Program-made: the position numbers and the translations under genes
IMG/VR virus record: IMGVR_UViG_3300012917_000011
Location: 1-25,741 of that record
Source of the DNA: a virus
Direction: 5' to 3' (one strand)
Length of the DNA stretch: 25,741 nucleotides
In this document: piece after piece, positions 5,205 through 23,603 of the stretch
How positions within the stretch are numbered: position 1 is the first letter of the stretch
How the letters are laid out: the number at the start of each line of letters is the position of its first letter
The notes under the pieces: generated by a model
Database searches by the model: none
What the model saw: the letters and a program-made list of their open reading frames with translations, nothing else
Told to the model about the DNA's origin: nothing

Positions 5205-5421
5205 TGTCGAATGACTCCCTAACGAGCTTTATTGCGCGCTCTAAATCATCAAGTTCAACAAACAAATCAATTATATTGTTATATTTTGTACCTGTTTTAG
5301 GATCGGTTGGATTTTCTCCAAATCGGTGTAATTTACCTATTATCTGTAATACCTCCCCGCATTCTTCTATTAAATAAGCGATCTTATCAGCCTGTGTTAT
5401 GGGAAGTAGATCGTGCCTCAT
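5179..5421 (-). CDS. MazG-like nucleotide pyrophosphohydrolase
   Basis: An 80-residue protein with the all-alpha NTP pyrophosphatase signature: E19-E20-x-x-E23 in YLIEECGEVLQ, and a second acidic pair in VELDDLERAI (E56, D59), giving the EExxE ... ExxD metal-binding pattern. Between them lies KLHRFGENPTDPKTG, the loop usual in short phage MazG-like proteins. Members hydrolyse (d)NTPs to NMPs and pyrophosphate, and phage forms may lower alarmone or non-canonical nucleotide levels. The length suits a single minimal domain. It sits between two probable internal virion genes, with a TAATG junction upstream and a 26-nt overlap downstream, an unusual place for a metabolic enzyme. Substrate cannot be told from sequence. 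Confidence 0.8.
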   Translation of the reverse strand: MRHDLLPITQADKIAYLIEECGEVLQIIGKLHRFGENPTDPKTGTKYNNIIDLFVELDDLERAIKLVRESFDNARRSRTG

Positions 5422-8942: not shown

Positions 8943-9296
8943 CTACGCAACTCCGAACGCCTGATCTAATTCCTGATGTTCCAAAGAATGGATATTCAGC
9001 CAATCATAGAACGCCGACTGATTGTCCAAATCCACTTCGGATAGATTGATACCCGTGATGTTCGCGTAAGGGCGGATTTGTTCGTGCCATTTTTCGTGGG
9101 AATCAAGCCAGTCACGACGTCCGATAGGGCCGGCCTCCATATTGAGGATAGGAAACTCCGGTATCACGACCGCAGGAGATCGCGCTGCGAGAACGGCGTT
9201 ATACCTCAAATGTTGACGGAAATGACCGACAAGGAACTCTCCGCTTCCTGCGGCGTCTCCGAACTGGAACAAGTTGAATGAAAATTCAGTGCTCAT
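8943..9296 (-). CDS. Conserved phage hypothetical protein
   Basis: A 117-residue protein. The N-terminal part (EFSFNLFQFGDAAGSGEFLVGHFRQHLRYNAVLAARSP) is mixed. The C-terminal part, INLSEVDLDNQSAFYDWLNIHSLEHQELDQAFGV, has a D-L-x(n)-F-x-x-W-x-x-x-H-x-x-x-H pattern that I know from small proteins coded between tail and internal virion genes in other podophages. The start overlaps the tailspike stop (ATGA), so it is coupled to it. It may be a chaperone or linker for a neighbouring virion protein; function not established. Confidence 0.7.
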   Translation of the reverse strand: MSTEFSFNLFQFGDAAGSGEFLVGHFRQHLRYNAVLAARSPAVVIPEFPILNMEAGPIGRRDWLDSHEKWHEQIRPYANITGINLSEVDLDNQSAFYDWLNIHSLEHQELDQAFGVA

Positions 9297-10792
9297 TGGT
9301 TTTCATAGACCCCACTCAAGATGACCCTAGACGTGCCTGTCAGGTTGGCTGAAGACGAGCACGATCCTGTCGCCGTTGCTGCGGAAATAAAGCAAGTGAC
9401 GTTTCCTCCGGTGCTTACAGAATCACGGCCGACTAAACCAGCGCCTGAGTTGGCCGTATTAGGCAGCGAGAAAAAGAACACATTCGTGCATGTGCCTAAT
9501 GTTGCAATCGTAAAATCCAGTTGAACGGTCGTTGTCTTTGCAAGCGTGTTTGCCTTCCCAGAATTGACCGTGAATGTAGCCGAACCGCACGCTGGAGATG
9601 GCGTGTAAGTTTTCCAAGCTCCCCCAACTGTCGTTGTCGTGAATTGCGAATAATCGCCAAGCGCAACAAGCCCTGTCAGCGTGCCGGTATAGTCCGTCAA
9701 TATGGTGTGGCCGCTAGTCCCGATCCATTGATTCCCTTGGCTAAAAAGGGCAGTGCCGGCAGCGAGATTCACTCCGTTTGAAATGTTGTTATTGACCTGC
9801 TCGAAGTAAGCATTGGCGACCATAGTGTAGGGTGCGGTCGCGGTGCCGGATAGATCATAGGCGGCCCGACCGCTGTTTATCGGCCCCTCGACTTCGTTTA
9901 AAATCAGGCGTGTCTGGCCTGACGTAAGTTGAAACCCGTTTTGCAATCCGCCCTGAGTAATGCCGTTATAAATGTGCATCGTGTCAAAGATGCCGTCAAA
10001 GTACGTTCCTTGAATCCCGATGCTTGTTCCAACGATCTCGCAATCTTTAAATCGAGAATCAGCCGCGCCGACCGCGCTGTTAGGATCGGTGAAAATTCCG
10101 TAATTGCCGCTGACGACCGTTGGAACAACACTGATGTAATTGCGCAGCGTACAGTTCGTGATGTGGATTTCCAGCGAGTTCGCCGTGCTCGCTGCGCCCA
10201 GACGGATGAATCCACCGATCGACCCGTTGCCGGTGTGTCCGTTGCATCCGTACATACGGAAATCGCGAAGATGGATGCCCTGGAAATCAGGGAGCGCAAA
10301 ACCGGAATCGGTAACATTGGTGTTGCAATCCCATTGCCCCCCGATCAGCGACAGGTCAATGAGGGAGTTGGACAAGCCAACATTGCCCTTAAGCATTGTC
10401 GGGATCGAAACGTTTGCCTGGATATAAGCATCAGGGTCGGCCCAGATGCTGCAACCAGGAGACCAGACCAAGCCTGTCGAACCGATCTTATAGAAGCCTG
10501 CCGGGATGATGACCGTTCCGTTGTTGGCGATGCCAAGAGGTCCTGCCACTCGACACGCGGTCATTGCGGCATTGAACGCCGTTCCGAAGTTGGCTGTGAC
10601 GCCGGTCGGGTCCGCGTTGAACGGTGATCGCGTTACGTTGAATGTTTGAGGGGATGGGGTGCCCTGGACAAACGCCGTCGAGGCACAGGCATTGCTGTTG
10701 TCGCCGACCGGCCGCGTCGGGCACGTCGTATTTTGCGCGAGCGCAGCGTTGGCAACGAGGTTGAAAAACAGCGTGAGGAACAGACGACGCAT
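9293..10792 (-). CDS. Tailspike/tail fibre with pectate-lyase-like beta-helix and Sec signal peptide
   Basis: A 499-residue protein. Residues 1-19 form a standard Sec signal peptide: MRR, a hydrophobic core, then ANAALA with cleavage expected before Q20. Next comes CPTRPVGDNSNACASTAFV, a short repeat-like segment common at the start of phage tail fibres. From about residue 50, TFNVTRSPFNADPTGVTANFGTAF matches the opening of the pectate-lyase superfamily (PF12708-type), where a parallel right-handed beta-helix begins. Many short strands follow (HLRDFRMYGCNGHTG, IHITNCTLRN, RFKDCEIVGTSIGIQG, DTMHIYNGI). The C-terminal 120 residues are Thr/Ser-rich beta sequence. Likely role: receptor binding and possibly polysaccharide degradation. 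A signal peptide is odd for a virion protein assembled in the cytoplasm. Confidence 0.85.
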   Translation of the reverse strand: MRRLFLTLFFNLVANAALAQNTTCPTRPVGDNSNACASTAFVQGTPSPQTFNVTRSPFNADPTGVTANFGTAFNAAMTACRVAGPLGIANNGTVIIPAGFYKIGSTGLVWSPGCSIWADPDAYIQANVSIPTMLKGNVGLSNSLIDLSLIGGQWDCNTNVTDSGFALPDFQGIHLRDFRMYGCNGHTGNGSIGGFIRLGAASTANSLEIHITNCTLRNYISVVPTVVSGNYGIFTDPNSAVGAADSRFKDCEIVGTSIGIQGTYFDGIFDTMHIYNGITQGGLQNGFQLTSGQTRLILNEVEGPINSGRAAYDLSGTATAPYTMVANAYFEQVNNNISNGVNLAAGTALFSQGNQWIGTSGHTILTDYTGTLTGLVALGDYSQFTTTTVGGAWKTYTPSPACGSATFTVNSGKANTLAKTTTVQLDFTIATLGTCTNVFFFSLPNTANSGAGLVGRDSVSTGGNVTCFISAATATGSCSSSANLTGTSRVILSGVYENQ

Positions 10793-11145
10793 TATGATTC
10801 CTCCATGATCGTCAGCGGATTGCCAGAACCGCTAGCTGATAGCGCCTGCCATCCCTGTTTTGCGCCCTGCCCCTCTATTACTCTATCAGCCCCAGCGGCA
10901 AATATGCGAAAGCCTCCACCAAGTGCAGCGGTGGATGGCGTAAGCGTGGCGCTGGCACCACCAGGAGTGTTCTGAAGTACGGTTAATGGAAACACGAAAA
11001 TATCAACAGCGCCAGCGATCAATCCGGGATTGTGGAAAGTCAGTTTTTTACGATTCGGATTTATTCCTATTACCTGTGTCGGGGATGTACTAATATTGTT
11101 TAACGCCAGAATCGTCGAATTCGCTAGGTTTGTAGTATTCGTCAT
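10792..11145 (-). CDS. Small beta-rich tail-region protein
   Basis: A 117-residue protein starting MTNTTNLANSTILALNN. The ATG at 11145 is preferred because it makes an ATGA overlap with the tail hub gene; an upstream TTG at 11160 would lengthen it by five residues. Sequence around TSPTQVIGINPNRKKLTFHNPG matches a segment of the membrane-anchored 364-759 product, so the two are paralogues; this one lacks any signal. The rest (AVDIFVFPLTVLQN, GGGFRIFAAGADRVIEG, GWQALSASGSGNPLTIMEES) is a regular beta pattern. It ends in a TAATG junction with the tailspike gene. A tail-tip or tailspike adaptor or decoration role is likely from position. Confidence 0.75.
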   Translation of the reverse strand: MTNTTNLANSTILALNNISTSPTQVIGINPNRKKLTFHNPGLIAGAVDIFVFPLTVLQNTPGGASATLTPSTAALGGGFRIFAAGADRVIEGQGAKQGWQALSASGSGNPLTIMEES

Positions 11146-12923
11146 GGCGACGTTCCCCAAATATCTGCGTCGTTGTATTCGTTAGCTATCGCATTAATCG
11201 ACAGACCTAAGACGCTACCTTGCACGGTATTTCCGATGAATTTCCCATATCCTTCCGTGTCCTGATACGGGAATTTGAATCCTCCAGTGACGAAATTGAA
11301 GTTGCCGGGCACAGCATTAAGAAACTGCACGACTTGACCAAAATTGTTTACCCACGTGATGAGGGAAGCTGCGACGAATATATATGCGTTCGATCCGTTT
11401 TCTGTGTCCAGCGACATCGTAAGGTTTTGCGCCGTCTGCGTCGTCACTGCAATGCCGGATGTTACAGCTTTCTTTGCTGTCACCAAATTTCCATGCGGCG
11501 TCAGTGACGTGATCAGCAAAATAGGGACTGCCACAGCCTTATTGGCAAGTAATTGCGTGACATCTCCGCCGGATGATCCGAACGTCTCTACCTGCGTTGT
11601 CGATGCCAACGGCACGGAGCAAATAGACAACAGCGCGCCTTGCGAAACGACAAACCATTTATTTTGTTGAAACACGACAATGATTGAGCGCGTACCTAGC
11701 GTCGGGTCGATATACTTCAGCAAAAGCAAGTAACAGTGAATATTGCTTAAATCGTTGAGGGCTGCGGACGGTTCCAAACTAAAATCAGTGTTTTGCAAAA
11801 TTCCGTCCAGGTCATCAGATATTTTCTGCACCGTCGCTCCGAAAATTCCATAAACTCCTTGCTTGTTTGCCATCAAGACAATGCGATTGTACGACTGAAT
11901 TGACATCAGAAACGAAGTTCCAACATCCGAAGAAAGCGTAAGTATAGTAAATAGTGTGATTGACGACGATACAGTAATTGATCCGATTTGCTTAATACTC
12001 TGATCTCCAAAAATGTATAGGAAGTTGTTAAGCGCACGAAGCCCGGTAATGGAATGCACCAAATCCGCGTCAGTGATCGTGGTTGATCCGGCCGCGTCAG
12101 CGGGATTGATGTCATCGAAAGTTTGCCCTGTTGACGCACCCGTGCCAGTGAAATTGAGAATTCGCCCATTGGCCCACCACACACGACCAGCAAACACCGT
12201 TATTGTTGTTCCGGTGACTTGGGGCCACACAACGACGGTCGCCGTCGCTGGCGTGGTATTTGCTCCGGTGAAAACAACGGTAATTGCTGCGCCAGCGGCG
12301 TTTCCGGTTCCTGCATTGGTGACATTGACAGCAACGATAGAGCCCCCGGAAAGGACAGCCGTTGCCGTAGCTCCTCCGGCGTTTCCGCCAGCGCCTCCTG
12401 TAAAGCTGACTGCCGGCGGTGCGCCATAACCTGATCCTCCATTTGTGATGTTAATATTCGGAGAAATGCCACCGGACTTGACGAAAAGTGTCCCGTCCCA
12501 GGTTGCATATCCTCCCGTAGCGTCCATGATCAAAATGCGCTTGGACGCAAACAGCACCATATCAGGTTTGGCGGAAAACGTTCCGGGTCCCGCAATAGTA
12601 ACCTGCGCGCCGGTCAAAGCATTTATCTGTGTGGCGCTTCCGTCCGTCGCAAAGAAAATATCGTAATCGTTGTTGTTATAGTTTGCCTGAAACTGACGTG
12701 ATACGGTTTTACCGCCTACTGTTGTGAGCGCGGTCGCGGCTCCTGGAACTGTCTGAAAATCGTTAGCCGCAATTGGCTGTAGGTTTTCCATCCACGCCAC
12801 CTCTTTCTCTGAGAGGTTTTGGCGGGCTACCTTAGTGTTCATCTTCTCGAATTGTTGGAACAGAATAAATTTAGAGTTCCCGACCTGGGACGATTGGCGG
12901 AATGATTGCGGAGAGAGGCCCAT
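11142..12923 (-). CDS. Tail hub / stabilisation protein, P22 gp10-like
   Basis: A 593-residue protein. The N-terminus (MGLSPQSFRQSSQVGNSKF..) is followed by a repeating beta architecture with TGGYATWDGTLFV, GRVWWANGRILNFTG, RALNNFLYIFGDQSIKQIG and NRIVLMANKQGVYGI. This is the propeller-like arrangement of podovirus tail hub proteins of the P22 gp10 (packaged-DNA stabilisation) type. A Gly-rich insert at about residues 151-233 interrupts it and carries the GSGY beta repeat. It follows the gp4-like adaptor gene with a TAATG overlap, the order expected of adaptor then hub. The exact family match is a judgement from pattern and context. Confidence 0.7.
   Translation of the reverse strand: MGLSPQSFRQSSQVGNSKFILFQQFEKMNTKVARQNLSEKEVAWMENLQPIAANDFQTVPGAATALTTVGGKTVSRQFQANYNNNDYDIFFATDGSATQINALTGAQVTIAGPGTFSAKPDMVLFASKRILIMDATGGYATWDGTLFVKSGGISPNINITNGGSGYGAPPAVSFTGGAGGNAGGATATAVLSGGSIVAVNVTNAGTGNAAGAAITVVFTGANTTPATATVVVWPQVTGTTITVFAGRVWWANGRILNFTGTGASTGQTFDDINPADAAGSTTITDADLVHSITGLRALNNFLYIFGDQSIKQIGSITVSSSITLFTILTLSSDVGTSFLMSIQSYNRIVLMANKQGVYGIFGATVQKISDDLDGILQNTDFSLEPSAALNDLSNIHCYLLLLKYIDPTLGTRSIIVVFQQNKWFVVSQGALLSICSVPLASTTQVETFGSSGGDVTQLLANKAVAVPILLITSLTPHGNLVTAKKAVTSGIAVTTQTAQNLTMSLDTENGSNAYIFVAASLITWVNNFGQVVQFLNAVPGNFNFVTGGFKFPYQDTEGYGKFIGNTVQGSVLGLSINAIANEYNDADIWGTSP
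12225..12473 (-). repeat. GSGY beta-repeat insert in the tail hub gene
   Basis: Codes for about residues 151-233 of the hub protein. It contains NGGSGYGAPPAVSFTGG, then GGATATAVLSGGSIVAVNV and TNAGTGNAAGAAITVVFTG, which form two related units with the scheme G-G-S-G-Y-x-x-P-P-x-V-x-F ... A-x-A-x-V-x-x-G-x-I. The sequence on either side reads as uninterrupted hub protein (DGTLFV before, TITVFAGRVWW after), so the block looks inserted. The same type of unit occurs in the next two upstream genes. Confidence 0.6.
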
Positions 12924-13855
12924 TATCCGTTGAACGCTCTGTTGACCTTGCGCGCAAACGTCGTGTGGTACGGGTTGGGAATTCGAATCCCCGCCGACGT
13001 TGTGATGAAACGGGGCACGAGGTGGGCATAGCGATCTTCGAGTGCCGCGACCTGCCCGAAATTCTGATGCTTGTAGAGCAAGTAGGCGGCGGCCTTGAAT
13101 TGCACCGCCTTATCCCACGGATCGACAAGTTGCGTGTCAACATCTGTTGCTGCAACAAGCGGGGCCGGCAAAAATGACACATCCCACTCGGAAAGATACA
13201 TCTGATCGGGTGGGGCTTGGATGTAGACTTGCTGTCCTTGCTGATGTTGATTGTACACGGATGGCGGTTGCACAAATGCTGTTGTCGCCCACGCCCGTGC
13301 ATATGCTTGAAAAAGCTGAAACGGCAGGTAGGACAGCGAACGGCGTTGCTGATTCCATATGTAGGAAATCCCTATAATTGACAGAGGGTTGCCGATGATT
13401 GTTGACAGCGGATTAGCCTGGAACAGCGGAATCGCGGTCGCCGCCGCCCCAGAGCCTATGCCGCCAACCGTCACCGCCGGAACCGCGCTGTAGCCCTGCC
13501 CCCATTGCGTCATTGTGATTGACGTAAGGATGCCCGAGACAAGCGTTCCCACCCCAAGAGCTTGCACTCCGCCGGGCGGGGGCGCAGCAAACGTTACCGC
13601 GACCGTCGAGCCCGCACCGTAATTCGATCCGCCGGCCGTGACGTTTGCGCCCGTAACCGCGCCGTTGAGCGCGTAGATTTCCTTGCCCTGCAAAAGCTGT
13701 ATGCCAGTGACGTTTTGCCGCACGCACCACATGTCACGGGCGGCGTCAATCCGGGCGTCATTGATCCGGGAGATTACGCGGGAGAGCGGCCACGAGCTGT
13801 TCGTGCTGTCGTGCACGATTTCAAGCACATCGTTGATGTAGTCCTGCAATTGCAT
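12923..13855 (-). CDS. Head-tail adaptor, P22 gp4-like, with repeat insert
   Basis: A 310-residue protein. Residues 1-65 (MQLQDYINDVLEIVHDSTNS, then SRVISRINDARIDAARDMW) are the helical opening of podovirus adaptor proteins that dock on the portal. Residues 66-148 are a Gly/Ala-rich GSGY-type insert. The adaptor sequence resumes with STIIGNPLSIIGISYIWNQQ, ending in PWDKAVQFKAAAYLLYKHQNF and GQVAALEDRYAHLVPRFI, again the typical helical end of the family. GGAGC lies upstream of the ATG. It is followed directly by the hub gene. In P22 the equivalent protein closes the portal after packaging and carries the tail. Confidence 0.8.
   Translation of the reverse strand: MQLQDYINDVLEIVHDSTNSSWPLSRVISRINDARIDAARDMWCVRQNVTGIQLLQGKEIYALNGAVTGANVTAGGSNYGAGSTVAVTFAAPPPGGVQALGVGTLVSGILTSITMTQWGQGYSAVPAVTVGGIGSGAAATAIPLFQANPLSTIIGNPLSIIGISYIWNQQRRSLSYLPFQLFQAYARAWATTAFVQPPSVYNQHQQGQQVYIQAPPDQMYLSEWDVSFLPAPLVAATDVDTQLVDPWDKAVQFKAAAYLLYKHQNFGQVAALEDRYAHLVPRFITTSAGIRIPNPYHTTFARKVNRAFNG
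13412..13660 (-). repeat. GSGY beta-repeat insert in the adaptor gene
   Basis: Codes for about residues 66-148 of the adaptor. It has AGGSNYGAGSTVAVTFAAPPPGGVQAL-type sequence, then WGQGYSAVPAVTVGG and GSGAAATAIPLF. The PPPGGVQA segment recurs almost unchanged in the 14471-15664 gene (PPPPGGVQATF), which points to exchange or duplication between neighbours. It sits where the helical family sequence is interrupted. Confidence 0.6.
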
Positions 13856-14470: not shown

Positions 14471-15664
14471 TTACTGCACCATTGCTTGCACGATAGATGT
14501 ATCGACGCGGCCACCATATTGTGTGTTCGTCACGGTGGCGAGAGTAGCGCCACCCACGTAGGTCACAGTGACAGCGGCACCCTGTAAACCATAACCGGGA
14601 TCTTCAACGGAGAAAGTTCCCGCCGCCGCGGTGGTGAGGCCGCGAGCCGGACGTGGGAAAAACGTGTTGTTGTTGTTCGTCCCCGCAACAATTCCGAGCG
14701 AGGTAATCGCGACTCCATTAGTGACGGCGGTTGACCCACCCGTCGCAGTCGCGCTTGTTCCAGTGATACAGAACGACATGATCGGGGTTGCCGCTGCCGC
14801 GCCGAGTGACGTGCCGCCAAACGAAATAGTTGCTTGGCTGTTGCCGGCATAGCCACCGCCGAAAGCGGTCATCACGATGGCGGTAAGCGTACCTGTGCCC
14901 GTTAGGGCGGCCCCTGTAAGAAGCGCTCCGGTCGTTCCGGTAACGAGATTGGCCTGATACGGCGATCCCTGCCAAGCGTTTGCTGGGTTGATAAGGCCCG
15001 GCGCGGGAACGGTTTGCGGTGTATCACCGGGAAAACGGATTGCGCCCTGATAGAACTGCGGCTGCGGGATGATGTAAAACTGCGGAATCGACGTATAACC
15101 CGCACCGGGGGCGAGCTGCGTCACTCCAGTAATCACGCCAGCCGCGGATATGGTTGCCGTAAACGTCGCCTGCACACCACCGGGAGGCGGGGGGTCGCAA
15201 ACGATGGTAGGGGGCACAAGGAAGCCAGAACCGCCCTGCGTAACCGTGGGCGCGGGAACCGTGCCGCCGACCACCACATAACCTTGCGCGGTTGCCGTGA
15301 CGCCGCCCGCGGCCGGAGCCGCGAAAGTGACCGTCGAGCCGGTTTGATTCGGGCCAATGCCGTTGGTGCCACCCGATCCAGCGTTCGTGATGCTGCCGCC
15401 GACGCACGTACCGGAGTTGTTCACCAAGCGGTAGTTGGTCCCATCGCAAGAAATCTGCGCCAGCGTTTCAGGGCCGGCATACTGTCGCCAGATGGCGTTA
15501 GTCGGGTCCCACCATTCCACAATCGTCTGCGAACCAGTCGTGATCAAATAGGTTCCTGACGGCGGATACCACACTCCACCGGAGGGAAGTGTCACTACAC
15601 CGGGAACGCCAATATTTTGCGGTGACGTGGGCGGAAGCGGGAAAACACCTCTTATCTGTGCCAT
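14471..15664 (-). CDS. Structural protein built largely of GSGY beta repeats, 397 aa
   Basis: Residues 1-75 (MAQIRGVFPLPPTSPQNIGV, then GTYLITTGSQTIVEWWDPTN) look like a small beta domain, possibly an anchoring part. From about residue 88 the protein is a run of Gly/Ala/Thr-rich beta units with TQGGSGFLVPPTIVC, APGAGYTSIPQFYI, AFGGGYAGNSQATISFGG and VEDPGYGLQGAAVTVTYVGG. Each follows the scheme G-x-G-Y/F-x-x-x-P/Q-x-V/I. These resemble the repeats inserted in the adaptor and hub genes. A decoration or neck-fibre protein is plausible. The ATG at 15664 follows the Tat-type mini-capsid gene by 11 nt. Confidence 0.7.
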   Translation of the reverse strand: MAQIRGVFPLPPTSPQNIGVPGVVTLPSGGVWYPPSGTYLITTGSQTIVEWWDPTNAIWRQYAGPETLAQISCDGTNYRLVNNSGTCVGGSITNAGSGGTNGIGPNQTGSTVTFAAPAAGGVTATAQGYVVVGGTVPAPTVTQGGSGFLVPPTIVCDPPPPGGVQATFTATISAAGVITGVTQLAPGAGYTSIPQFYIIPQPQFYQGAIRFPGDTPQTVPAPGLINPANAWQGSPYQANLVTGTTGALLTGAALTGTGTLTAIVMTAFGGGYAGNSQATISFGGTSLGAAAATPIMSFCITGTSATATGGSTAVTNGVAITSLGIVAGTNNNNTFFPRPARGLTTAAAGTFSVEDPGYGLQGAAVTVTYVGGATLATVTNTQYGGRVDTSIVQAMVQ

Positions 15665-15675
15665 GACGAGTTACC

Positions 15676-16068
15676 TCAGATTTTTATGTAGTCGAGGCCG
15701 CTGAATTTTCCGCAAGCCTTGGGGTTATCGGGACGCACCATGATGACGCAGCCCTCCTCACATTCCGCAACTGCACAGAAAGGAATTCCTGCAATCTCTA
15801 TTGCTAGATAACCTTCTTGCGTAACCGATAGACGGTCCTCTGACGCCGCCAATCTCTGTGGCATAAAATCTTCCGCCAGCATGGCCCATGTACCAGGACC
15901 CATCACCGCGTAATCAGGTATTTGACCGGATTTCTTTGTCACGCCCGCGAGATAGCGAATCATCAAATGGCATGTGGGTTGAATCGCTTCGCCGGTCGCG
16001 GCAGATAGGCATGGAATTGCCGCCAAAGATGCTATGGACCCTACAACGAAATTTCTACGCGTCGTCAT
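15676..16068 (-). CDS. Capsid-derived mini-protein with Tat-type signal sequence
   Basis: A 130-residue protein. Residues 1-27 (MTTRRNFVVGSIASLAAIPC..) have twin arginines, F two positions later and a mild hydrophobic core, which is a Tat-type signal peptide. Residues 34-71 align without gaps to residues 194-231 of the capsid protein encoded just upstream (LMIxYxAxVTK.. to GTWAxLAEDFxPQ); by hand 22 of 38 positions are identical. IEIAGIPF matches capsid LDIAGIPF, and the end CGKFSGLDYIKI matches HGKFAGLQFLPI, while capsid residues about 278-323 are missing. The would-be mature part has five Cys (33, 98, 103, 107, 119), against three in the whole capsid protein. A GAGG site overlapping the capsid stop precedes the ATG by 7 nt. 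It could be an exported decoy, an assembly modulator or a decaying duplicate. Confidence 0.75.
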   Translation of the reverse strand: MTTRRNFVVGSIASLAAIPCLSAATGEAIQPTCHLMIRYLAGVTKKSGQIPDYAVMGPGTWAMLAEDFMPQRLAASEDRLSVTQEGYLAIEIAGIPFCAVAECEEGCVIMVRPDNPKACGKFSGLDYIKI

Positions 16069-16077
16069 AGCGTCGCC

Positions 16078-17091
16078 TCAAATCGGAAGGAATTGCAGAC
16101 CAGCAAACTTGCCGTGACACTTCGGCTTGACGTTCACGACCTCAAGCAGAGACAGAATGGCGCTGATCCAACCAAACTGATTGTTCGGAAGCGTGCTCTC
16201 AAAGCCTGAGAACGAAAATGCAGCGCGTTCGTGCAGGAACAAATTCAGGTAGCTTGTGTTGATCAAGTAAATGGTGCCCTCCGGGCAGTACACATCCGCG
16301 TAGAATGGAATGCCCGCTATATCCAAAGCCTGGAACGATGAATGCCCGACGAAATTTGCGGAATCCAACTTGTCGGACGGGTTGATATTGTACCGTTCCT
16401 GCGGCGTGAAATCTTCCGCCAAAAGCGCCCAAGTACCTGCTCCAAGGATTCCAATAGTTGGCATTTCACCCGTGGTTTTTGTAACCTGGGCGATATATTG
16501 AATCATCAGGTTTCGTGTTGGAATGACGTTGCCGGTATTATTGACAAACGTCGATTTCCAAAACTGGTTTGTCAGACGGGGGATGCCGCCGTATGAATTG
16601 AGGAAAGTGCCGTCGTCGATTGCGCCGGGTAGACCGACCAATTGCGCGGTATTAGCGACGTTGTTGAACAACGCCGTTGCCATGGCATCGATTGTCACAT
16701 TAGTCGCGTCGTTAAATCGCGCATCAATCAGCGGCACGATGCTGTAATCGACCTGTACAAGGCCCTCGAAACCGAGGAATGGAATCGGAGTAACGAACGC
16801 CTTCAAATTGAATTCGGCGTTTTGAATTCCGGGGATTGCGCCGGGCTGTTGGAACGATCCGCTGTAGTCGGTCCACTGACCGGCCACCATCGGCGTGCCT
16901 TGCACAGGCGCGGTGATCGGTGAGAGCCCGCCGCTCGCGACCTGCGCCGCAGAGAGGAGCGCGCAAATTAGGGGCGCGGACTTCCAAATCTGCACGTACA
17001 CGCGGGGCATAAAAGCGCGGCGAACAACGGCCGTCAGCTCTTGGGTGATCGGACCTTGTGACGGGATTATGCCACTGCCGAATTGGGGCAC
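16078..17091 (-). CDS. Major capsid protein
   Basis: A 337-residue protein, a normal size for a tailed-phage major capsid protein. It starts at a GTG (17091) six bases behind a perfect AGGAGG, the strongest ribosome site in the window, as expected for the most abundant virion protein. Features include an N-terminal helix with ITQELTAVVRRAFMPRVYVQIW, then QTDYSG-like beta sequence and FLGFEGLVQVDYSIVPLIDARFND. A central region GTWALLAEDFTPQERYN and the C-terminal CHGKFAGLQFLPI follow. It comes straight after the putative scaffold gene, the standard order. An HK97 fold is expected for the family but cannot be shown from sequence alone. Its C-terminal part is partly duplicated in the next gene. 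Confidence 0.8.
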   Translation of the reverse strand: MPQFGSGIIPSQGPITQELTAVVRRAFMPRVYVQIWKSAPLICALLSAAQVASGGLSPITAPVQGTPMVAGQWTDYSGSFQQPGAIPGIQNAEFNLKAFVTPIPFLGFEGLVQVDYSIVPLIDARFNDATNVTIDAMATALFNNVANTAQLVGLPGAIDDGTFLNSYGGIPRLTNQFWKSTFVNNTGNVIPTRNLMIQYIAQVTKTTGEMPTIGILGAGTWALLAEDFTPQERYNINPSDKLDSANFVGHSSFQALDIAGIPFYADVYCPEGTIYLINTSYLNLFLHERAAFSFSGFESTLPNNQFGWISAILSLLEVVNVKPKCHGKFAGLQFLPI

Positions 17092-17097
17092 TTAACG

Positions 17098-17103
17098 CCT
17101 CCT
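17098..17103 (-). promoter_or_regulatory. Consensus Shine-Dalgarno of the capsid gene
   Basis: AGGAGG on the minus strand with a 6-nt spacer to the GTG start at 17091. It overlaps the TAG stop of the putative scaffold gene, so termination and re-initiation are coupled. It decides the capsid start, since the GTG is otherwise a weak codon. Confidence 0.8.
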
Positions 17104-17674
17104 ATCTTTGGAACGCGGCAGGGAGCCGGTTGCGTTTGAATTCCGTGATGACCTGGAACGCCGCGTTGCGCGTCGCTCCGTTAAGATTGTCCTTGAAGTC
17201 CTTGAAGCCCAACATCTTGCCATCTTGACCGGGAACCGTGGGAAACTCCCAGGTCGAACCGCCGTGCTGTAATTCTGGCGGTGGTTTCAAATCCGGATTC
17301 GGCGGCGGATTACGCTGCGCATAAATATCGGCACCGGCCACCCAATCGGGCAGGCCGTAATGCTGCATGATCTTGTCAATTTCCTTGACCTGATCTTCGT
17401 TCAATTTGCGCTTGGAAATGACCTCGCGCTTTTGTTGGTCGCGCGCGCGGGCAACGTGCTGCATCCGCTCGGCAAGACGGTCGTCCTCGAATTTCTTGGT
17501 GAACGCGTCGAACTTTTCTTCAAGCGCAACGTCACCGAAGGCGCGCGCGGCACCCGGATCGACTTGCTTGACGAGGCTGGCGAAATCCTTACGGGTTTTC
17601 TCATTGTGGGAGAGGTTGAACGCCAGCTTGGAAAGGCGGTCCATATCGGCCGGGCTGAGTTGCGGACCGTTCAT
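17102..17674 (-). CDS. Putative scaffolding protein
   Basis: A 190-residue protein, strongly charged and helical over about residues 1-110 (DMDRLSKLAFNLSHNEKTRK.., KFDAFTKKFEDDRLAERMQH.., SKRKLNEDQVKEIDKIMQHY). A Pro-rich linker and a small C-terminal basic helix follow (FQVITEFKRNRLPAAFQR). Small size, high charge, predicted helix and a position directly upstream of the capsid gene are the usual marks of a scaffold, whose C-terminus contacts the inner capsid. No protease is seen nearby. Sequence alone does not prove it; an internal capsid or packaging-associated protein is the alternative. Confidence 0.6.
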   Translation of the reverse strand: MNGPQLSPADMDRLSKLAFNLSHNEKTRKDFASLVKQVDPGAARAFGDVALEEKFDAFTKKFEDDRLAERMQHVARARDQQKREVISKRKLNEDQVKEIDKIMQHYGLPDWVAGADIYAQRNPPPNPDLKPPPELQHGGSTWEFPTVPGQDGKMLGFKDFKDNLNGATRNAAFQVITEFKRNRLPAAFQR

Positions 17675-17676
17675 AA

Positions 17677-17901
17677 TTACCGGCCCCCCAACGACCCGTT
17701 GCGATGCAATTTCTTTTCCATCGCGTTGATTTTCTGGCGTTCCGTGCCTTCCTCGCCTTCATTGGCCTGCTTAGGCCACTTGCCGGTGACGGAAGGAAGA
17801 TGCACGGGATTGCGCCAATGATCTTCGCCCTGATCCCCGATCATATCGAGGATCGTCTGGCGACTCGGATTCTTTGGTTCGAAAATGGGTCGGCTGGACA
17901 T
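17677..17901 (-). CDS. Small hypothetical head-module protein
   Basis: A 74-residue basic, polar protein (MSSRPIFEPKNPSRQTILDM, then EGTERQKINAMEKKLHRNG). No membrane segment, Cys cluster or known motif. It overlaps the preceding gene by a single base and lies two bases from the putative scaffold gene, so it belongs to the head operon. Probably a small virion or assembly factor. Confidence 0.6.
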   Translation of the reverse strand: MSSRPIFEPKNPSRQTILDMIGDQGEDHWRNPVHLPSVTGKWPKQANEGEEGTERQKINAMEKKLHRNGSLGGR

Positions 17902-18101
17902 CAGATTGGCCGCCCGCGAACCGCCTGTGGCCCACCCTTCTCAAGGGTCATCTTGTTCTTGTCGAACATGGATTTTGAGGCCGAAGAAAAACCGCCATAG
18001 TCCATGTACATTGGCGGGTTTCTAAATTGCCCGTCCTCCATGCGGCGACGGTCAAGGTCTGCGGTGTCTACGCCCTTGGGTTTCATGAATTCACCGGCCA
18101 T
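17901..18101 (-). CDS. Small hypothetical head-module protein
   Basis: A 66-residue basic protein (MAGEFMKPKGVDTADLDRRR, then YMDYGGFSSASKSMFDKNKM, ending GGPQAVRGRPI). No known motif. It overlaps the 59-aa gene upstream by 11 nt and the 74-aa gene downstream by one base. This close packing and the normal codon pattern support it as real. Function unknown. Confidence 0.6.
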   Translation of the reverse strand: MAGEFMKPKGVDTADLDRRRMEDGQFRNPPMYMDYGGFSSASKSMFDKNKMTLEKGGPQAVRGRPI

Positions 18102-18270
18102 TGTAGATAGCCTCCGTTAACGTCATAGATTCCGACGACGGGAAGTCGCCCTCAAAGGGAAATACAAAGCCAGGAACCGTGACTTCAGTTCCATCATCGA
18201 AACGAAGATTGCGCAAAATTTGCAACCGGTCGGGACCCCAATAGAGTTTGCTTGGTTGAACGCCAGTCAC
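18091..18270 (-). CDS. Short 59-aa protein with GTG start
   Basis: This gene is easily missed. The GTG at 18270 overlaps the TGA of the upstream gene (GTGA) and sits about 6-7 nt behind a strong GGGAGG-type site. The product has LYWGPDRLQILRNLRFDDG, then VTVPGFVFPFEGDFPSSES and MTLTEAIYNGR. It has a compact beta-then-helix look, with no known motif. A longer in-frame reading back to 18753 would run antisense-like through the Pro/Gly-rich gene and is rejected. Probably a small head protein. Confidence 0.65.
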   Translation of the reverse strand: MTGVQPSKLYWGPDRLQILRNLRFDDGTEVTVPGFVFPFEGDFPSSESMTLTEAIYNGR

Positions 18271-18674
18271 GCCTCGCCTCCCGGTGCGATCCCGGCGGGC
18301 GTGCCCATCGGGGGGCCACCTCCACCCGAAGGCATCCCGCCAGCCGGCGACGGCAGACCGCCCAGCCCTGCCCCTGGGGGTGTCGCTGGTACGGGTAACG
18401 GTTGCTTGGGGGCCTCCGGTGTCGATTTCTTCATGAGGCCGTTCAGCATCGAAATGACGCGTGCCAAGGTGCCAAATTCCGGCGTCCCGTTCGGGAATGC
18501 CGGACCGACCTCCATCAGCATGTCGATGACTTTGCCGATTTGCTGTTTTCCACGCGCCTGCATCCCCGCACCAGTGCCGGGCGACACCATCGGGGAGCCG
18601 CCGGGGCCGCTGGGGCCACCTATGGGCGACTTTGGAAGCCCGATACCGGGCTTGGGTTGGGGCATAAGTCCCAT
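18267..18674 (-). CDS. Pro/Gly-rich head-module protein with helical core
   Basis: About 135 residues. A Pro/Gly-rich N-terminus (MPQPKPGIGLPKSPIGG..) leads to a helical core, KQQIGKVIDMLMEVGPAF then FGTLARVISMLNGLMKK, and a second Pro/Gly-rich tail. The start is uncertain: ATG at 18674 is used here, while a TTG at 18686 in the same frame is possible; neither has a good ribosome site. It is the first gene after the terminator at 18754-18787, so it should begin a transcript. TTGACG near 18740 on the minus strand is a fair -35 element, but no clear -10 follows. A flexible virion-associated protein is a guess. Confidence 0.6.
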   Translation of the reverse strand: MGLMPQPKPGIGLPKSPIGGPSGPGGSPMVSPGTGAGMQARGKQQIGKVIDMLMEVGPAFPNGTPEFGTLARVISMLNGLMKKSTPEAPKQPLPVPATPPGAGLGGLPSPAGGMPSGGGGPPMGTPAGIAPGGEA

Positions 18675-18753
18675 GTAAATAGGCAAATCCGCATGAAAGA
18701 TATGCGTATTGGTATGCCTCCGTTGGACTTACGTCAATAGCTTCACAGCTCAC

Positions 18754-18787
18754 AAAAGAAAACAGCCCCGGACGAATCCCGAGGCTG
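18754..18787 (-). terminator. Rho-independent terminator ending the packaging/portal module
   Basis: On the minus strand CAGCCTCGG, a 7-nt loop (GATTCGT) and CCGGGGCTG form a 9-bp stem with one G-U pair, followed at once by TTTTCTTTT. This is a textbook intrinsic terminator. It lies about 25 nt after the stop of the 21-residue ORF and before the head module, so head genes likely rely on read-through or their own promoter. Confidence 0.85.
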
Positions 18788-18812
18788 CTGTACGGCAGGA
18801 CGTAAAACCCTG

Positions 18813-19168: not shown

Positions 19169-19568
19169 CGTTCAATTCCTCTGACAGCATGATCTTGCGC
19201 AAGATGTAGCGGCAGGGCCGCCACCTAGTCGAACAGATTTTCCACCCCACTAGAATGCCGTTTATGTGGTGGATGTGTACGGCGACCGTTCGCTGCTTCA
19301 TGTCAAGATTGATTTGCAGCTCTGCCGATTCAACTCCCGCCGCCCCTCCAACCTCCACCACGTCGAAAATCTTCGCTTCCAGGAGAGTCAATTCAGCCCC
19401 TAAACGAAACGTAATTTCTGGTCTGCCAATAGGGCCAGGGAGCCACCTTCCTTGGCTGTCTCTCCGCTGTCTTGTTCCGCGTTTTATCGAGCAAAGCTTG
19501 GATAAATCCCGATCTTTACCGTGAGCCGTCACAATAGAGGGCGGGGGGGTGGGCTGCAAAACGTTCAC
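19104..19568 (-). CDS. Winged-helix DNA-binding protein, OmpR-type C-domain-like
   Basis: A 154-residue protein. LTLLEAKIFDVVEVGGAAGV, then ESAELQINLD and RTVAVHIHHINGILVGWKI (about residues 60-115), follow the winged-helix scheme of response-regulator effector domains: helix 1, helix 2, then the recognition helix with V-x-V-H-I-x-x-I/L-N/R-x-x-L. No receiver domain is present. The N-terminus is basic and Pro-rich, with RGTRQRRDSQGRWLPGP, a type of motif found in small phage DNA-binding proteins. The GTG at 19568 overlaps the portal stop (GTGA). It could be a late-gene regulator or, given its position by the portal and terminase, a packaging protein such as a small terminase; the latter is speculation. 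Confidence 0.65.
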   Translation of the reverse strand: MNVLQPTPPPSIVTAHGKDRDLSKLCSIKRGTRQRRDSQGRWLPGPIGRPEITFRLGAELTLLEAKIFDVVEVGGAAGVESAELQINLDMKQRTVAVHIHHINGILVGWKICSTRWRPCRYILRKIMLSEELNDGDSIRRNGPRVWYHEGVQAD

Positions 19569-21304
19569 TTTTTCTTTCCTCCGCCGGCTTGCTTCGCCAA
19601 CAGTTCCGGGTGTTGCTGCGCCATCTTCTTTTGCTGCCGCTTCCGCTTGTGAATCGAGTGCAACAGGTTGTCGCGAGACGGTGGGTTGGTCATGCGGATG
19701 AAGTCCTCGTCATCGATCGTACCGAACTTGCGATAGACCATTGCCATCTCGCGGGCTTCATCACCGAATAGGGGCGAGTGGGAATGTCCGTCTACCCGCA
19801 TTTTGACGTTACCGGCTTCACCCGGAAAGAACTCGTGTGACTTGTCGTTCTCATCTGGCGAGGTCCGCAGCCTGTCGTCGTCATGCGCCATCTTCAGTTT
19901 GAGGCCCACATCTCCGATCTTCACAAGCGCTGGCTCAATAGCGAGGGCCGCTTTCTTGATGCGACCGGAACCCGATTTCTTCAAATCCTGCGCGTGCTGC
20001 CGGGAGCGTACGCCGCGTTCGCTGTGGCCGGCGACAACCTCAGTTAGGCCAGATGCCTCCAGAAACTCGCCCTTGATCTCTTTGTACTCGGCAAAAATGT
20101 CGGGCGGCATATCGGGGGCCAGTTCCTTCACCGTCGCCTGTGGTAGCTGGTCGAATACATACGATCCCGCGCCACCGAAAGCGGCCATTTTTTCCTCGCT
20201 CAGGCCAAGAAAACCGGCACCGACCTTTGCCGGGTCTGCTTGGCGATCAAGAATGTCGTCAATCTGGTCTATCCGCTGCAACAGCCAATCTTGCAACGGA
20301 ATAAGAGCGTCAATATGCGCCTTGCCCCAAAAGTAGTTATACTTCGTGTAAGGCTGTATTTTCGAGAACGGGTGGCAACCCGGATAAAACGGGTTTGACT
20401 CTGATATTTTTTCGCCCGCCTTCAAACGTCCGAATAAATCAACAACATTGGATGTAGCCTTTTTGTACAGATTTATCGTATTAACGCTATCACCTACCAT
20501 AATGTCCGGTTCTAGAATATGGAATACTCGGTAATCCGTCGTACGATCATCCCATACATAAAGCTCGTTCCACCTCACCAGAGGCACAGACGACTTTGCT
20601 TGATATGTGGCGTTTGGCGCATAATCTGGATTGACTTGACCGAACAGCGTTCCCGACAGACTCGCCCCCGTCGATCCAGAAATAATCATGCGCTGAAGCA
20701 TTTCAGGGAACGGCGACATGGCTGCGGTGTGCGTAACCTTAAGTCGCTCTATTTCGTCATCCTTACCTGCCAAAATTAGTTTCCCCACTGCCTCTTGATA
20801 CTCGATAAAATACGTATGCACAAAACAACTTTGGCTATCCAAGTCCTTGATGTCCTCCCGATATACTCCGAAATTATGCGGAGGCACCAACTCAAGAAAC
20901 CACTCGCCTTTATCGCGATTCCACCCCTGTTTAGTTAGTATCGTATCGTAAACAAGGGACCACGGAATTGCGTCCATAATTGCTTCTGAAATCCCGCAGT
21001 CTTGGAAGTCCTCGTTGAAATCGTCCTGCAAAGCCTGCGCTTTCAGGATAGACAATTCATCTTCCGTATTCTCCGCTGCGATATGGAAAAACGCATGATC
21101 CGGGGCGTACAAAAACGAAGTCACAAGGTCGAGATGACTATTGATAACGTTTACGCGAGCTTGTTCTAAACCGGAGTTACCGAACAGATAATATTTTTCC
21201 CGCCACTGATATATTTTATCCCGTTCGTCACGCGTTGAAAGGCAGCGCTCAATGAGGTATCGCACGCACTTTTGCAGTTCCTCTTTTTCGGTCGGAAGGA
21301 TCAT
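19565..21304 (-). CDS. Portal protein
   Basis: A 579-residue protein, the usual size for a podovirus portal. The N-terminus is helical and charged (KEELQKCVRYLIERCLSTRD). It runs through LDLVTSFLYAPDHAFFHIAA, then VPPHNFGVYREDI and VRWNELYVWDDRTTDYRVFHI, into WLLQRIDQIDDILDRQADPAK (stem/clip helices). After that come GLTEVVAGHSERGVRSRQHAQ and a basic tail, HKRKRQQKKMAQQ. The position directly after the terminase/zinc-ribbon pair supports the call. It forms the DNA channel at the special capsid vertex. ATG at 21304 overlaps the zinc-ribbon stop (ATGA). The family is diverged, so the call leans on size, composition and order. Confidence 0.75.
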   Translation of the reverse strand: MILPTEKEELQKCVRYLIERCLSTRDERDKIYQWREKYYLFGNSGLEQARVNVINSHLDLVTSFLYAPDHAFFHIAAENTEDELSILKAQALQDDFNEDFQDCGISEAIMDAIPWSLVYDTILTKQGWNRDKGEWFLELVPPHNFGVYREDIKDLDSQSCFVHTYFIEYQEAVGKLILAGKDDEIERLKVTHTAAMSPFPEMLQRMIISGSTGASLSGTLFGQVNPDYAPNATYQAKSSVPLVRWNELYVWDDRTTDYRVFHILEPDIMVGDSVNTINLYKKATSNVVDLFGRLKAGEKISESNPFYPGCHPFSKIQPYTKYNYFWGKAHIDALIPLQDWLLQRIDQIDDILDRQADPAKVGAGFLGLSEEKMAAFGGAGSYVFDQLPQATVKELAPDMPPDIFAEYKEIKGEFLEASGLTEVVAGHSERGVRSRQHAQDLKKSGSGRIKKAALAIEPALVKIGDVGLKLKMAHDDDRLRTSPDENDKSHEFFPGEAGNVKMRVDGHSHSPLFGDEAREMAMVYRKFGTIDDEDFIRMTNPPSRDNLLHSIHKRKRQQKKMAQQHPELLAKQAGGGKKK

Positions 21305-21765
21305 ATTCCACGCTGTTTTGTTCGCGCCATGACAATAGCGTTTGCGTCGGGACCGGGGATGGACGCCGACCGATCGCGTGCGACGCCAATCTGCACCTTA
21401 CCACGAATGTCTACGGGCGAGGAAGATGGAACGCAGATGGCCCCATGCGCCGACACTGGAGAGGCAAAGCCGGGACCGAAATTTCTGATTCCCATCTCCG
21501 GAGAAATTGGCGGCGTGTTCACTTTTGGCATAGCGCGATTAAGTCGCGAGTGAGAAGGGCTATTAAGATTAGTAAGGCCGTGCTGGTCAGCAATACTACG
21601 AATGCGAGCGTCCATGCGTGGTGCAATAGAATTAACATGCCCGCCCCCAGGAACCCAATCAACGCGGATGCACCCGCAAGCAGGACATGGAGGATTGTCA
21701 TTCGCAAACGAGTGGAACGTTTCTCCACATCTCTCATTGAGACACCGCCAATCGCGAGAGATCAC
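21301..21765 (-). CDS. Zinc-ribbon protein between terminase and portal
   Basis: A 154-residue protein. The N-terminus has RDWRCLNERCGETFHSFAND then PPCPACGCIRVDWVPGGGHV, with Cys at 8, 13, 27, 30 and 32, and the W-V-P-G-G-G-H motif that I know from small zinc-ribbon proteins beside phage terminase and portal genes. The rest is polar and low in structure, ending in DANAIVMARTKQRGI. GTG at 21765 overlaps the terminase stop and ATGA joins it to the portal gene. Role unknown; the zinc ribbon may bind DNA or the packaging motor. A nested frame inside it (21519-21737) codes two hydrophobic segments and is treated as a finding, not a gene. Confidence 0.75.
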   Translation of the reverse strand: MISRDWRCLNERCGETFHSFANDNPPCPACGCIRVDWVPGGGHVNSIAPRMDARIRSIADQHGLTNLNSPSHSRLNRAMPKVNTPPISPEMGIRNFGPGFASPVSAHGAICVPSSSPVDIRGKVQIGVARDRSASIPGPDANAIVMARTKQRGI

Positions 21766-23603
21766 ATCGGCACCGTTATGTTGCTGCGGCGAAGGTAGTT
21801 AGAAATCAACTTATCAATCGGCTGATCCCCACCGCGTCTGTCGATCTCAAGCGCCTTCTCGCGCGTCATTCTGAGACCAATCAACATTGGTTGCAACCAC
21901 TTCCGCCAGCATTCATAGGCCATAGCCGCGGTTACCGCGCGGTCATCGTTGCCACCGCCTTCTGCTTCAATCGACCCTTCCTTGTTTACGAGGCGGCGCA
22001 TTTCCTCAATGAGAGGCAACGACCGGATGTGCATCCTCCCCAACTCCACCGCGTCCTTGAAGCGCGCCATCAACATGCGTTTTAGATCATCAGTTGTCGT
22101 CCATTGATAGGCCAACTCGCCGGACATTGAATCTATGCGCTGATAGTAAAAGTCACGCATATTCTTGAGACAGTTTTTTAGTTCGTAATTGTCTGAGTGC
22201 GGCGGCATTTCTCTCAAATAATCTCTGACCCTTTGTAGTTCCGAGAATACTGCTTTTCCAGGTCCGTTTATTTCAAGTATAACCCTACTATCTTTCTTGC
22301 CATAAAATCCGGCAAGATGCGCAATAACCCACGCTGTCTGGTATGTTGAAAATACAGATGTACAATATTCAGCCACCTGCACCATGCCGTCTGCGAAGGC
22401 TCTCCATACTTGTATACAATTGTTGTCAGCCTGATCAGACGAGCCGTAGGCAGGGTCACAAGATACGACGTAATAGCCGAATTTTGAAGAATGTTCCCAC
22501 ACACGCAATTCGGCCCGCAGGTCGTTGACGGAATATACATCTATTTCCTCCCACCTTCTCGTCATCTTGTAACGGTAAGTCTGAAACGGCCTCTTGTGAG
22601 CATCGCGTGTTATTTGCGTCAGTACCGGAGCGGTGAAATACTTCGAACCCGTAGATTGGAAAGCATCATCTTCAGTAAACGGGAACTCTTGATCCATAAC
22701 AGATTGATCATTTGCAAATTCATCCTCCATTTTCCAGCGATACCACGCTAGCTGTTGGAGGCTGACATCGAATTTGTATTGGTCCCGAACTGCACGCACG
22801 CGTTCACGCTCAAGTTGCGATAGTTTATTATTGGGAGCAAATATCTTGAAGCGATTGTCACGCACATGAAACTGGTTTCGCTCGTCTCTCCACCATCCCG
22901 AGAAAATAAAACGTACAGTTTTTGACGTTTTTGCTGACTGGCACTGATCATAGAAGTGATTAAATCCATTTGCGGTGCTCTCCCATATTTGCAGACGGTG
23001 CGTATAAATAGAAGAAATTGACGACTTGAACGCTTTCAAATCATCTTCGTTGGCGTAGAAAGCAACCTCCGTTCCGTGGACGTAATTAGCAGCAAGGGAG
23101 CGCCCTAAGCCCCCACCGCTGTTTTCGTTAACCCCACCTATCAGGTATGAGAAACTAGAATCATTATCGAACAATAGTATATTACGGTTATGGCTTATTA
23201 CATTAGGGCGGAACCTTTTGCCGTCAACCTTCTTAGGCATTGACGCGAGTTGTATTTCAATTTGGGCACGCCACTTCGCAAGCGCCTTTTCCTCATGAAG
23301 GATGAAGGTTCCGAGCAATCCCGGATGTGCAAGAGCATAGAAAAAATCTACCGCAAGAAATAGCGTAGTCGACCCTTGCTGCCGTCCCTTCAGAACAACG
23401 AACGTCGTGATCCCTTCTTTGAGACCCTTATCTACCTCGCTTAAAATGTATTGCTGACTTCCGAGCAGCCTAAGCGGAACCCGACCATAATCTCGGGACT
23501 GAATTTTAAGGTGCTTTATGTACCGCTTGAACTTAGCGAGCGGGAACTTGGCGACCTTGGTAGGGGCACCGATCTTGAAGTTTTGGCGTTGTGCAGACTT
23601 CAT
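21762..23603 (-). CDS. terL: Terminase large subunit
   Basis: A 613-residue packaging ATPase/nuclease. The Walker A-like loop is GRQQGSTT (residues 73-80), with the GRQxG(S/K)T form usual in phage terminases. A Walker B-like stretch near 172-182 ends in E179, and STAN (209-212) is motif C. The RNase H-type nuclease follows: D383 in VSCDPAYGSSD, E444 in VILEINGPGK and D553/D554 in GGNDDRAVTAAMA. All catalytic positions are present, so the enzyme should be active. It uses ATP to pump DNA into the prohead and cuts the concatemer. The ATG has GGTGG just upstream and overlaps the preceding membrane protein gene by 71 nt. No clear small subunit is found. Confidence 0.9.
   Translation of the reverse strand: MKSAQRQNFKIGAPTKVAKFPLAKFKRYIKHLKIQSRDYGRVPLRLLGSQQYILSEVDKGLKEGITTFVVLKGRQQGSTTLFLAVDFFYALAHPGLLGTFILHEEKALAKWRAQIEIQLASMPKKVDGKRFRPNVISHNRNILLFDNDSSFSYLIGGVNENSGGGLGRSLAANYVHGTEVAFYANEDDLKAFKSSISSIYTHRLQIWESTANGFNHFYDQCQSAKTSKTVRFIFSGWWRDERNQFHVRDNRFKIFAPNNKLSQLERERVRAVRDQYKFDVSLQQLAWYRWKMEDEFANDQSVMDQEFPFTEDDAFQSTGSKYFTAPVLTQITRDAHKRPFQTYRYKMTRRWEEIDVYSVNDLRAELRVWEHSSKFGYYVVSCDPAYGSSDQADNNCIQVWRAFADGMVQVAEYCTSVFSTYQTAWVIAHLAGFYGKKDSRVILEINGPGKAVFSELQRVRDYLREMPPHSDNYELKNCLKNMRDFYYQRIDSMSGELAYQWTTTDDLKRMLMARFKDAVELGRMHIRSLPLIEEMRRLVNKEGSIEAEGGGNDDRAVTAAMAYECWRKWLQPMLIGLRMTREKALEIDRRGGDQPIDKLISNYLRRSNITVPM

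Follow-up and report, generated by a model that had tools for sequence, protein, structure and literature searches.

What does a phage gain from a 130-residue protein that resembles part of its major capsid protein (MCP), is encoded directly beside it, and begins with a leader of the export type? The window, meaning the whole stretch of 25,741 nucleotides analysed here (IMG/VR record IMGVR_UViG_3300012917_000011), is a soil phage contig whose structural genes read on the minus strand. The features needed for the argument are the following.

21762-23603, minus strand: terminase.
19565-21304, minus strand: portal-like gene (weak match).
Minus strand: 190-aa gene with no family assigned, possibly a scaffold, judged by position.
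16078-17091, minus strand: MCP of 337 aa, HK97-fold, matching NF033394 (E 5e-30, over the curated cut-off).
16258-16533, minus strand: MCP codons 187-278, matching A-domain part 1 of the paralogue (MCP HMM).
16129-16257, minus strand: MCP codons 279-321, the 43 residues of the P-domain return, missing in the paralogue (HMM and comparison with PMC9710869 and PMC9965877).
16081-16128, minus strand: MCP codons 322-337, matching A-domain part 2 of the paralogue (MCP HMM).
16076-16079, minus strand: GAGG Shine-Dalgarno sequence over the MCP stop codon, 7 nt 5' of the ATG of the paralogue.
15676-16068, minus strand: A-domain-only capsid paralogue of 130 aa with an N-terminal export-type leader (homology to the MCP, orthologue in contig L004, dN/dS).
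15982-16068, minus strand: codons 1-29 of the paralogue (MTTRRNFVVGSIASLAAIPCLSAATGEAI), a Tat-like leader without MCP counterpart.
16048-16059, minus strand: twin-arginine motif codons RRNF (RRDF in L004).
15733-15981, minus strand: A-domain part 1, residues 30-112, homologue of MCP 187-278.
15679-15732, minus strand: A-domain part 2, residues 113-130, whose end is homologous to MCP 322-337 (1.0 bit alone, weak).
14471-15664, minus strand: 397-aa glycine-rich protein, probably a decoration protein or head fibre (position and weak similarity only).

The 130-aa ORF starts 9 nt past the MCP stop codon and in the same frame, and a single TGA is the sole stop that separates the two in both the window and L004 (GGC/GGT GAC GCT ATG). 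Its start is supported by the GAGG 7 nt upstream, which overlaps the MCP stop. In many relatives, too, the TGAGG at the MCP end provides the ribosome-binding site for the gene that follows; there the 397-aa decoration-like gene is normally the direct successor of the MCP at a median gap of 9 nt. Three virion proteins of the window, including the decoration-like one (11142-12923, 12923-13855, and 14471-15664, all on the minus strand), have common glycine-rich repeats (NAGSGG...GGSGF.VPP) with weak matches to tail-fibre and head-closure PHROGs.

An HMM of 24 related MCPs scores the 130-aa protein at 64.5 bits in all, a significant similarity to the MCP family. The main match covers MCP 187-278 (61.6 bits, E ~1e-20), and a second match lies in line with it at MCP 322-337. 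In a tblastn comparison, the protein and the MCP are 39% identical over 114 columns (E ~1e-19), and in the block PTCHLM...LAEDF, 22 of 38 residues are identical. These searches, together with the coordinates, confirm the capsid-derived ORF beside the MCP gene that a preliminary description had proposed from the letters. That description had aligned two capsid pieces with about 46 residues skipped between them; both pieces hold, but the skipped segment is about 43 residues. The NF033394 profile does not match the 130-aa protein alone, and a Pfam search gives it no match at E <= 1, PF08967/DUF1884 included. The N-arm, E-loop, and P-domain of the MCP have no counterpart in the protein, and its HK97 fold is thus incomplete.

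In solved coat proteins, the A-domain consists of a long stretch, an interrupting P-domain return, and a short C-terminal strand that comes last (PMC9965877, PMC9710869). Specifically, the A-domain of P22 gp5 comprises residues 128-221/346-357 and 417-430 (PMC9965877), while that of the Andhra capsid protein comprises residues 181-343 and 387-395, with a P-domain return of 43 residues at 344-386 (PMC9710869). The segment missing from the 130-aa protein, MCP 279-321, has the same length as the Andhra return. Because the first and last A-domain parts are kept and exactly the 43-residue return is missing, the protein is, as far as its sequence tells, one HK97-fold A-domain with the P-domain segment removed and not a random fragment. 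This assignment draws on the alignment and on published domain limits, since the structure models are weak. Two AlphaFold2 (AF2) runs on the 130-aa protein gave poor mean pLDDT values of 47 and 57; the better model (62 rows, mean pLDDT 57) reaches a pLDDT of 70-79 at residues 31-70 and contains two helices and several strands, as in A-domains. Fold searches with the AF2 models gave no significant match, and the phage capsid chains of T7, Sf6, and E1004 appeared in them with Z scores of just 2.4-2.9, no higher than noise.

The positions that are invariant among MCPs have not been kept evenly. The paralogue retains 17 of 23 non-polar invariant positions versus 7 of 24 polar ones (Fisher p 0.003), so that 17 of the 24 polar residues have disappeared within the matched region. 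A shorter paralogue in contig L024 has kept 12 of 21 non-polar versus 5 of 25 polar positions (p 0.014). Retention of non-polar and loss of polar residues is what would be expected if the fold stays while the putative shell contacts go. Since its invariant core residues are kept and the polar ones mostly lost, the 130-aa protein is probably no normal shell subunit.

The orthologue of the 130-aa gene lies at 7024-7416 of L004 (IMGVR_UViG_3300011269_000012, L003/L004) and keeps the leader. The MCPs of the pair are 99.4% identical and the 130-aa proteins 82%. By the Nei-Gojobori method on the single pair of window and L004, the 130-aa gene has a dN/dS of 0.176 (95% interval 0.10-0.32), with 0.20 (0.06-0.52) for the leader and 0.17 for the body. 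In the same pair, the MCP has 0.013 and the 190-aa gene 0.043 at similar dS (0.56-0.69), and the dN of the 130-aa gene is 0.099 versus 0.009 for the MCP. None of 500 neutral simulations reached so low a dN/dS, and 355 of the 500 gained stops. The 130-aa gene is maintained by purifying selection, body and leader alike. A chimeric assembly is unlikely because the same gene order is found independently in L004. A 67-nt run identical to L004 (15664-15735) covers the 3' end of the A-domain gene together with the ribosome-binding site that follows; it is not special, given two 71-nt identical runs in the MCP genes of the pair, and such runs perhaps reflect mosaic exchange.

The body of the 130-aa protein contains five cysteines (33, 98, 103, 107, and 119), and the MCP contains three (43, 269, and 325). 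All five are present in L004, while the L024 paralogue has two. Their conservation is weak evidence because it is often expected by chance at 82% identity. The counts given in the preliminary description are right, but its argument that the cysteines suit an oxidising compartment is weak.

Residues 1-26 of the 130-aa protein show no MCP similarity above that of shuffled sequences, in agreement with the earlier view that the first 27 or so have no capsid counterpart. The leader contains RRNFV (RRDFI in L004) followed by about 20 uncharged residues, which fits the RR-x-F-hydrophobic Tat pattern. Small residues near positions 22-24 would allow signal peptidase to cut after residue 24, a possible site predicted from the residues. 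Among 24,736 Pfam families, TAT_signal (PF10518) is the best match of both the window leader (E 0.42, 11.1 bits) and the L004 leader (E 0.037, 14.4 bits), each below the curated cut-off of 22.7 bits. The only NCBIfam match is that of the L004 leader to TIGR01409 (E 0.098), at 13.1 versus a cut-off of 16.7.

The leader passes an author-made, TatP-like rule (RR motif plus uncharged stretch). Of 20,000 shuffled leaders, 109 (about 0.5%) and 58 pass it, as do 17 of the 2834 ORFs of the loci, several of which are antisense or repeat the MCP N-arm. If it changed neutrally, the leader would keep to the rule with probability 0.13. Its retention in L004 is therefore modest evidence, and the case for the leader consists mostly of the dN/dS of one sequence pair. 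The Tat-type signal claimed in the preliminary description is borne out in its RRNF motif and hydrophobic core, which few shuffles reproduce, but not at the curated Tat cut-offs.

Candidate sources of the leader were rejected. Its RRAF and IP.L resemblance to the MCP N-arm or to MCP 164-190 does not exceed that of shuffles, which removes a relic of either as its origin. The leader DNA likewise shows no similarity to MCP or flanking DNA above shuffles save for one orientation of the stretch 17092-18800, which 4 of 200 shuffles equalled and which is not significant after six tests.

Signal-peptide-like starts also occur in other proteins of these phages. A late gene at 9293-10792 (minus strand) of the window encodes a 499-aa spike-like protein with a Sec-like start (MRRLFLTLFFNLVANAALAQNTTCPTRPVGDNSNACASTAFV); over the first 46 residues it is 78% identical to its counterpart in the contig of L004 and similar to that in L009, and its body is variable. 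In contig L078, a 119-aa structural-region protein at 5171-5530 (plus strand) has a signal-peptide-like start (MIRRLALAALASCALSGAALAQ).

Scans with MCP alignments yielded 100 distinct MCP DNA sequences; in 91, the DNA continues for 430 nt or more past the MCP. The leader-bearing A-domain gene is present in 2 of these 91, the window and L004. The start of the next gene is recognisable in 66, with a median gap after the MCP of 9 nt, and an A-domain ORF occupies this gap in the window, L004, and L024. The L024 copy, whose MCP is 72% identical, is a 101-aa A-domain-only paralogue that occupies this slot and has no leader; it contains the same two A-domain parts with more of the middle missing, and its frame differs from that of its MCP. 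Since this paralogue is leaderless and the leader occurs only in the window and L004, the leader is lineage-specific. Homologues lacking the leader were among the grounds on which the preliminary description would have given up its reading, and the leaderless copy in the more distant L024 partly answers to that. Fragment-based scans of viral contigs and genome contigs found no members beyond L004 and L024. A search for MCP relatives in the genomes of 84,980 species found none with the patterns used, and the named phages contain distant MCPs only.

In a tree, the copies of the window and L004 fall inside the MCP clade of the window, and the L024 copy falls elsewhere on a very long branch. At clade-diagnostic columns, the window and L004 copies share the states of the window's MCP clade 4:1, and the L024 copy shares those of its own clade 5:0. 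Six derived states occur in both paralogue types, and a single clade is compatible with the AU test (p 0.42). In L005 (7016-7234, plus strand) and also in L006, an unrelated 72-aa ORF lies between the MCP and the decoration-like gene, which suggests that small additional genes are tolerated at this junction. The MCP N-arm recurs in short ORFs away from the MCP gene in L053 (2083-2295, plus strand; MCP residues ~17-50) and L019 (8967-9053, plus strand; residues 8-46), and partial MCP copies seem to be recurrent in this phage group.

T4 gp24, a vertex protein, is an MCP paralogue encoded beside the MCP, as is the 130-aa protein; unlike it, gp24 has the full-length fold and is a virion subunit. 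Family 4 (A-domain) encapsulins (PF08967/DUF1884; 2PK8 of P. furiosus) consist of the HK97 A-domain only (PMC8346489) and resemble the 130-aa protein in that the other capsid domains are absent. They are cellular, mostly archaeal, and leaderless by description, and are encoded in two-gene operons with enzymes (PMC8346489). In contrast, the 130-aa protein is phage-encoded beside the MCP from which it derives, bears an export-type leader, and does not match PF08967, and its gene is flanked by the MCP and a decoration-like gene and not by an enzyme gene. SaPIbov5 Ccm, which diverts the assembly of helper capsids (PMC8569155), is likewise a second, diverged capsid homologue distinct from the major shell subunit. 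However, Ccm has the complete HK97 fold, is satellite-encoded, and occupies pentamers, whereas the 130-aa protein, from the phage's own morphogenesis operon, is an A-domain without P-domain, E-loop, or N-arm.

The leader resembles the Tat signals of PF10518 and TIGR01409 in its RR-x-F-hydrophobic motif, its uncharged, moderately hydrophobic core, and its plausible small-x-small site, although it scores under the curated cut-offs of both families. To our knowledge, no phage capsid-derived Tat substrate has been reported, and a search of the open-access literature found none. The combination of a phage-borne gene, a lone A-domain, and an export leader was likewise absent from the open-access papers. 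Lone A-domain proteins are already known; a phage-borne one with an export-type leader would be new. The preliminary description, which took the gene type to be undescribed, went too far for the lone A-domain and still agrees with the open-access literature on the phage-borne, leader-bearing form.

The best explanation, which we consider about evenly balanced between right and wrong, is that the phage repurposed the A-domain of its own MCP as a protein that folds in the cytoplasm, is exported by a putative Tat (or Sec) signal, and is used late at the envelope. The gene would have arisen by tandem duplication of the MCP 3' end, the copy likewise ending in TGAGG, the ribosome-binding site of the next gene. 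It would then have shed the N-arm, E-loop, and P-domain and acquired the leader, and its sequence would have drifted away from the shell interfaces. Made late with the capsid, the small alpha/beta domain may fold in the cytoplasm, and the Tat (or Sec) machinery of the host would carry it to the periplasm, there to be soluble or tethered by its leader. Its function late in infection might be a block to re-infection or a conditioning of the envelope, for example, which is a guess. The decoy, superinfection, or surface-antigen roles that the preliminary description offered would likewise be conjecture. Export of the protein is probable, as predicted from its leader, and the conserved signal-peptide-like start of the spike-like protein, a second late gene product, is consistent with it. 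Against this explanation stand the Tat profile matches, all below curated cut-offs, the leaderless paralogue of L024, and the poor structure models without a significant fold match. We also know of no periplasmic partner for a capsid domain. The fuller claim that a tailed phage uses the folded A-domain of its own capsid, exported via Tat, as a protein dedicated to the periplasm or the surface, and that its group made A-domain-only paralogues more than once, is tentative and somewhat more doubtful than not.

The alternatives, in falling weight, are an assembly factor, a capsid-sensing decoy, readthrough, and decay. As a minor capsid protein or assembly factor in the cytoplasm, the product would enter or cap a special capsomer (a vertex or the portal vertex) or poison misassembly, its hydrophobic N-terminus substituting for an N-arm or scaffold contact. 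The position of the gene between the MCP and decoration genes fits such a role, as do the L024 paralogue, a leaderless lone A-domain found at the same place, and the precedent of Ccm, a capsid homologue restricted to pentamers (PMC8569155). Yet the paralogue has lost most of the polar residues that MCPs hold invariant, lacks three regions that the full-length fold of Ccm retains, and has an N-terminus that looks like a signal peptide and unlike the MCP N-arm, which together make this an unlikely though serious rival. It is improbable, on the evidence at hand, that the protein is instead a cytoplasmic decoy whose A-domain surface, free of a shell subunit, titrates a CapRel-like capsid-sensing immune protein. 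Newly made MCP does trigger CapRel-SJ46, and one CapRel loop touches the MCP A-domain (PMC9712102); the rarity, patchy occurrence, and raised dN of the gene are also as in counter-defence genes. However, the leader would remove the product from the cytoplasm, binding might activate a sensor and not block it, and no sensor is known for the host.

The shared frame of the MCP and the ORF, in the window as in L004, would permit readthrough of the single in-frame TGA, with no further stop between, into a minor MCP form carrying a second A-domain, with the leader a mere linker. A shared frame has a one-in-three chance, though, and the ORF comes with a GAGG and an ATG of its own, the L024 paralogue lies in another frame, and a hydrophobic leader with two arginines would be an odd linker; this reading is very improbable. 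Least weight of all falls on decay of a duplicated MCP 3' end that has its leader by chance, the alternative that the preliminary description had offered. A partial copy adjoining its source, and the N-arm pieces in L053 and L019, are what such decay might leave. It is rejected on dN/dS, whose value of 0.18 has an upper bound of 0.32, and the frame has stayed open over a dS of ~0.56, across which most neutral simulations gain stops.

If export of the repurposed A-domain is true, the phage would have recruited a capsid domain for an extracytoplasmic task, and the gene would be seen near its birth, beside its parent. It would also bear on how pieces of the HK97 fold left virions, as proposed for the A-domain encapsulins. 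A phage paralogue of the MCP that consists of the A-domain only and is under selection, together with a leaderless second case in the same slot, suggests even without export that this domain can live alone.
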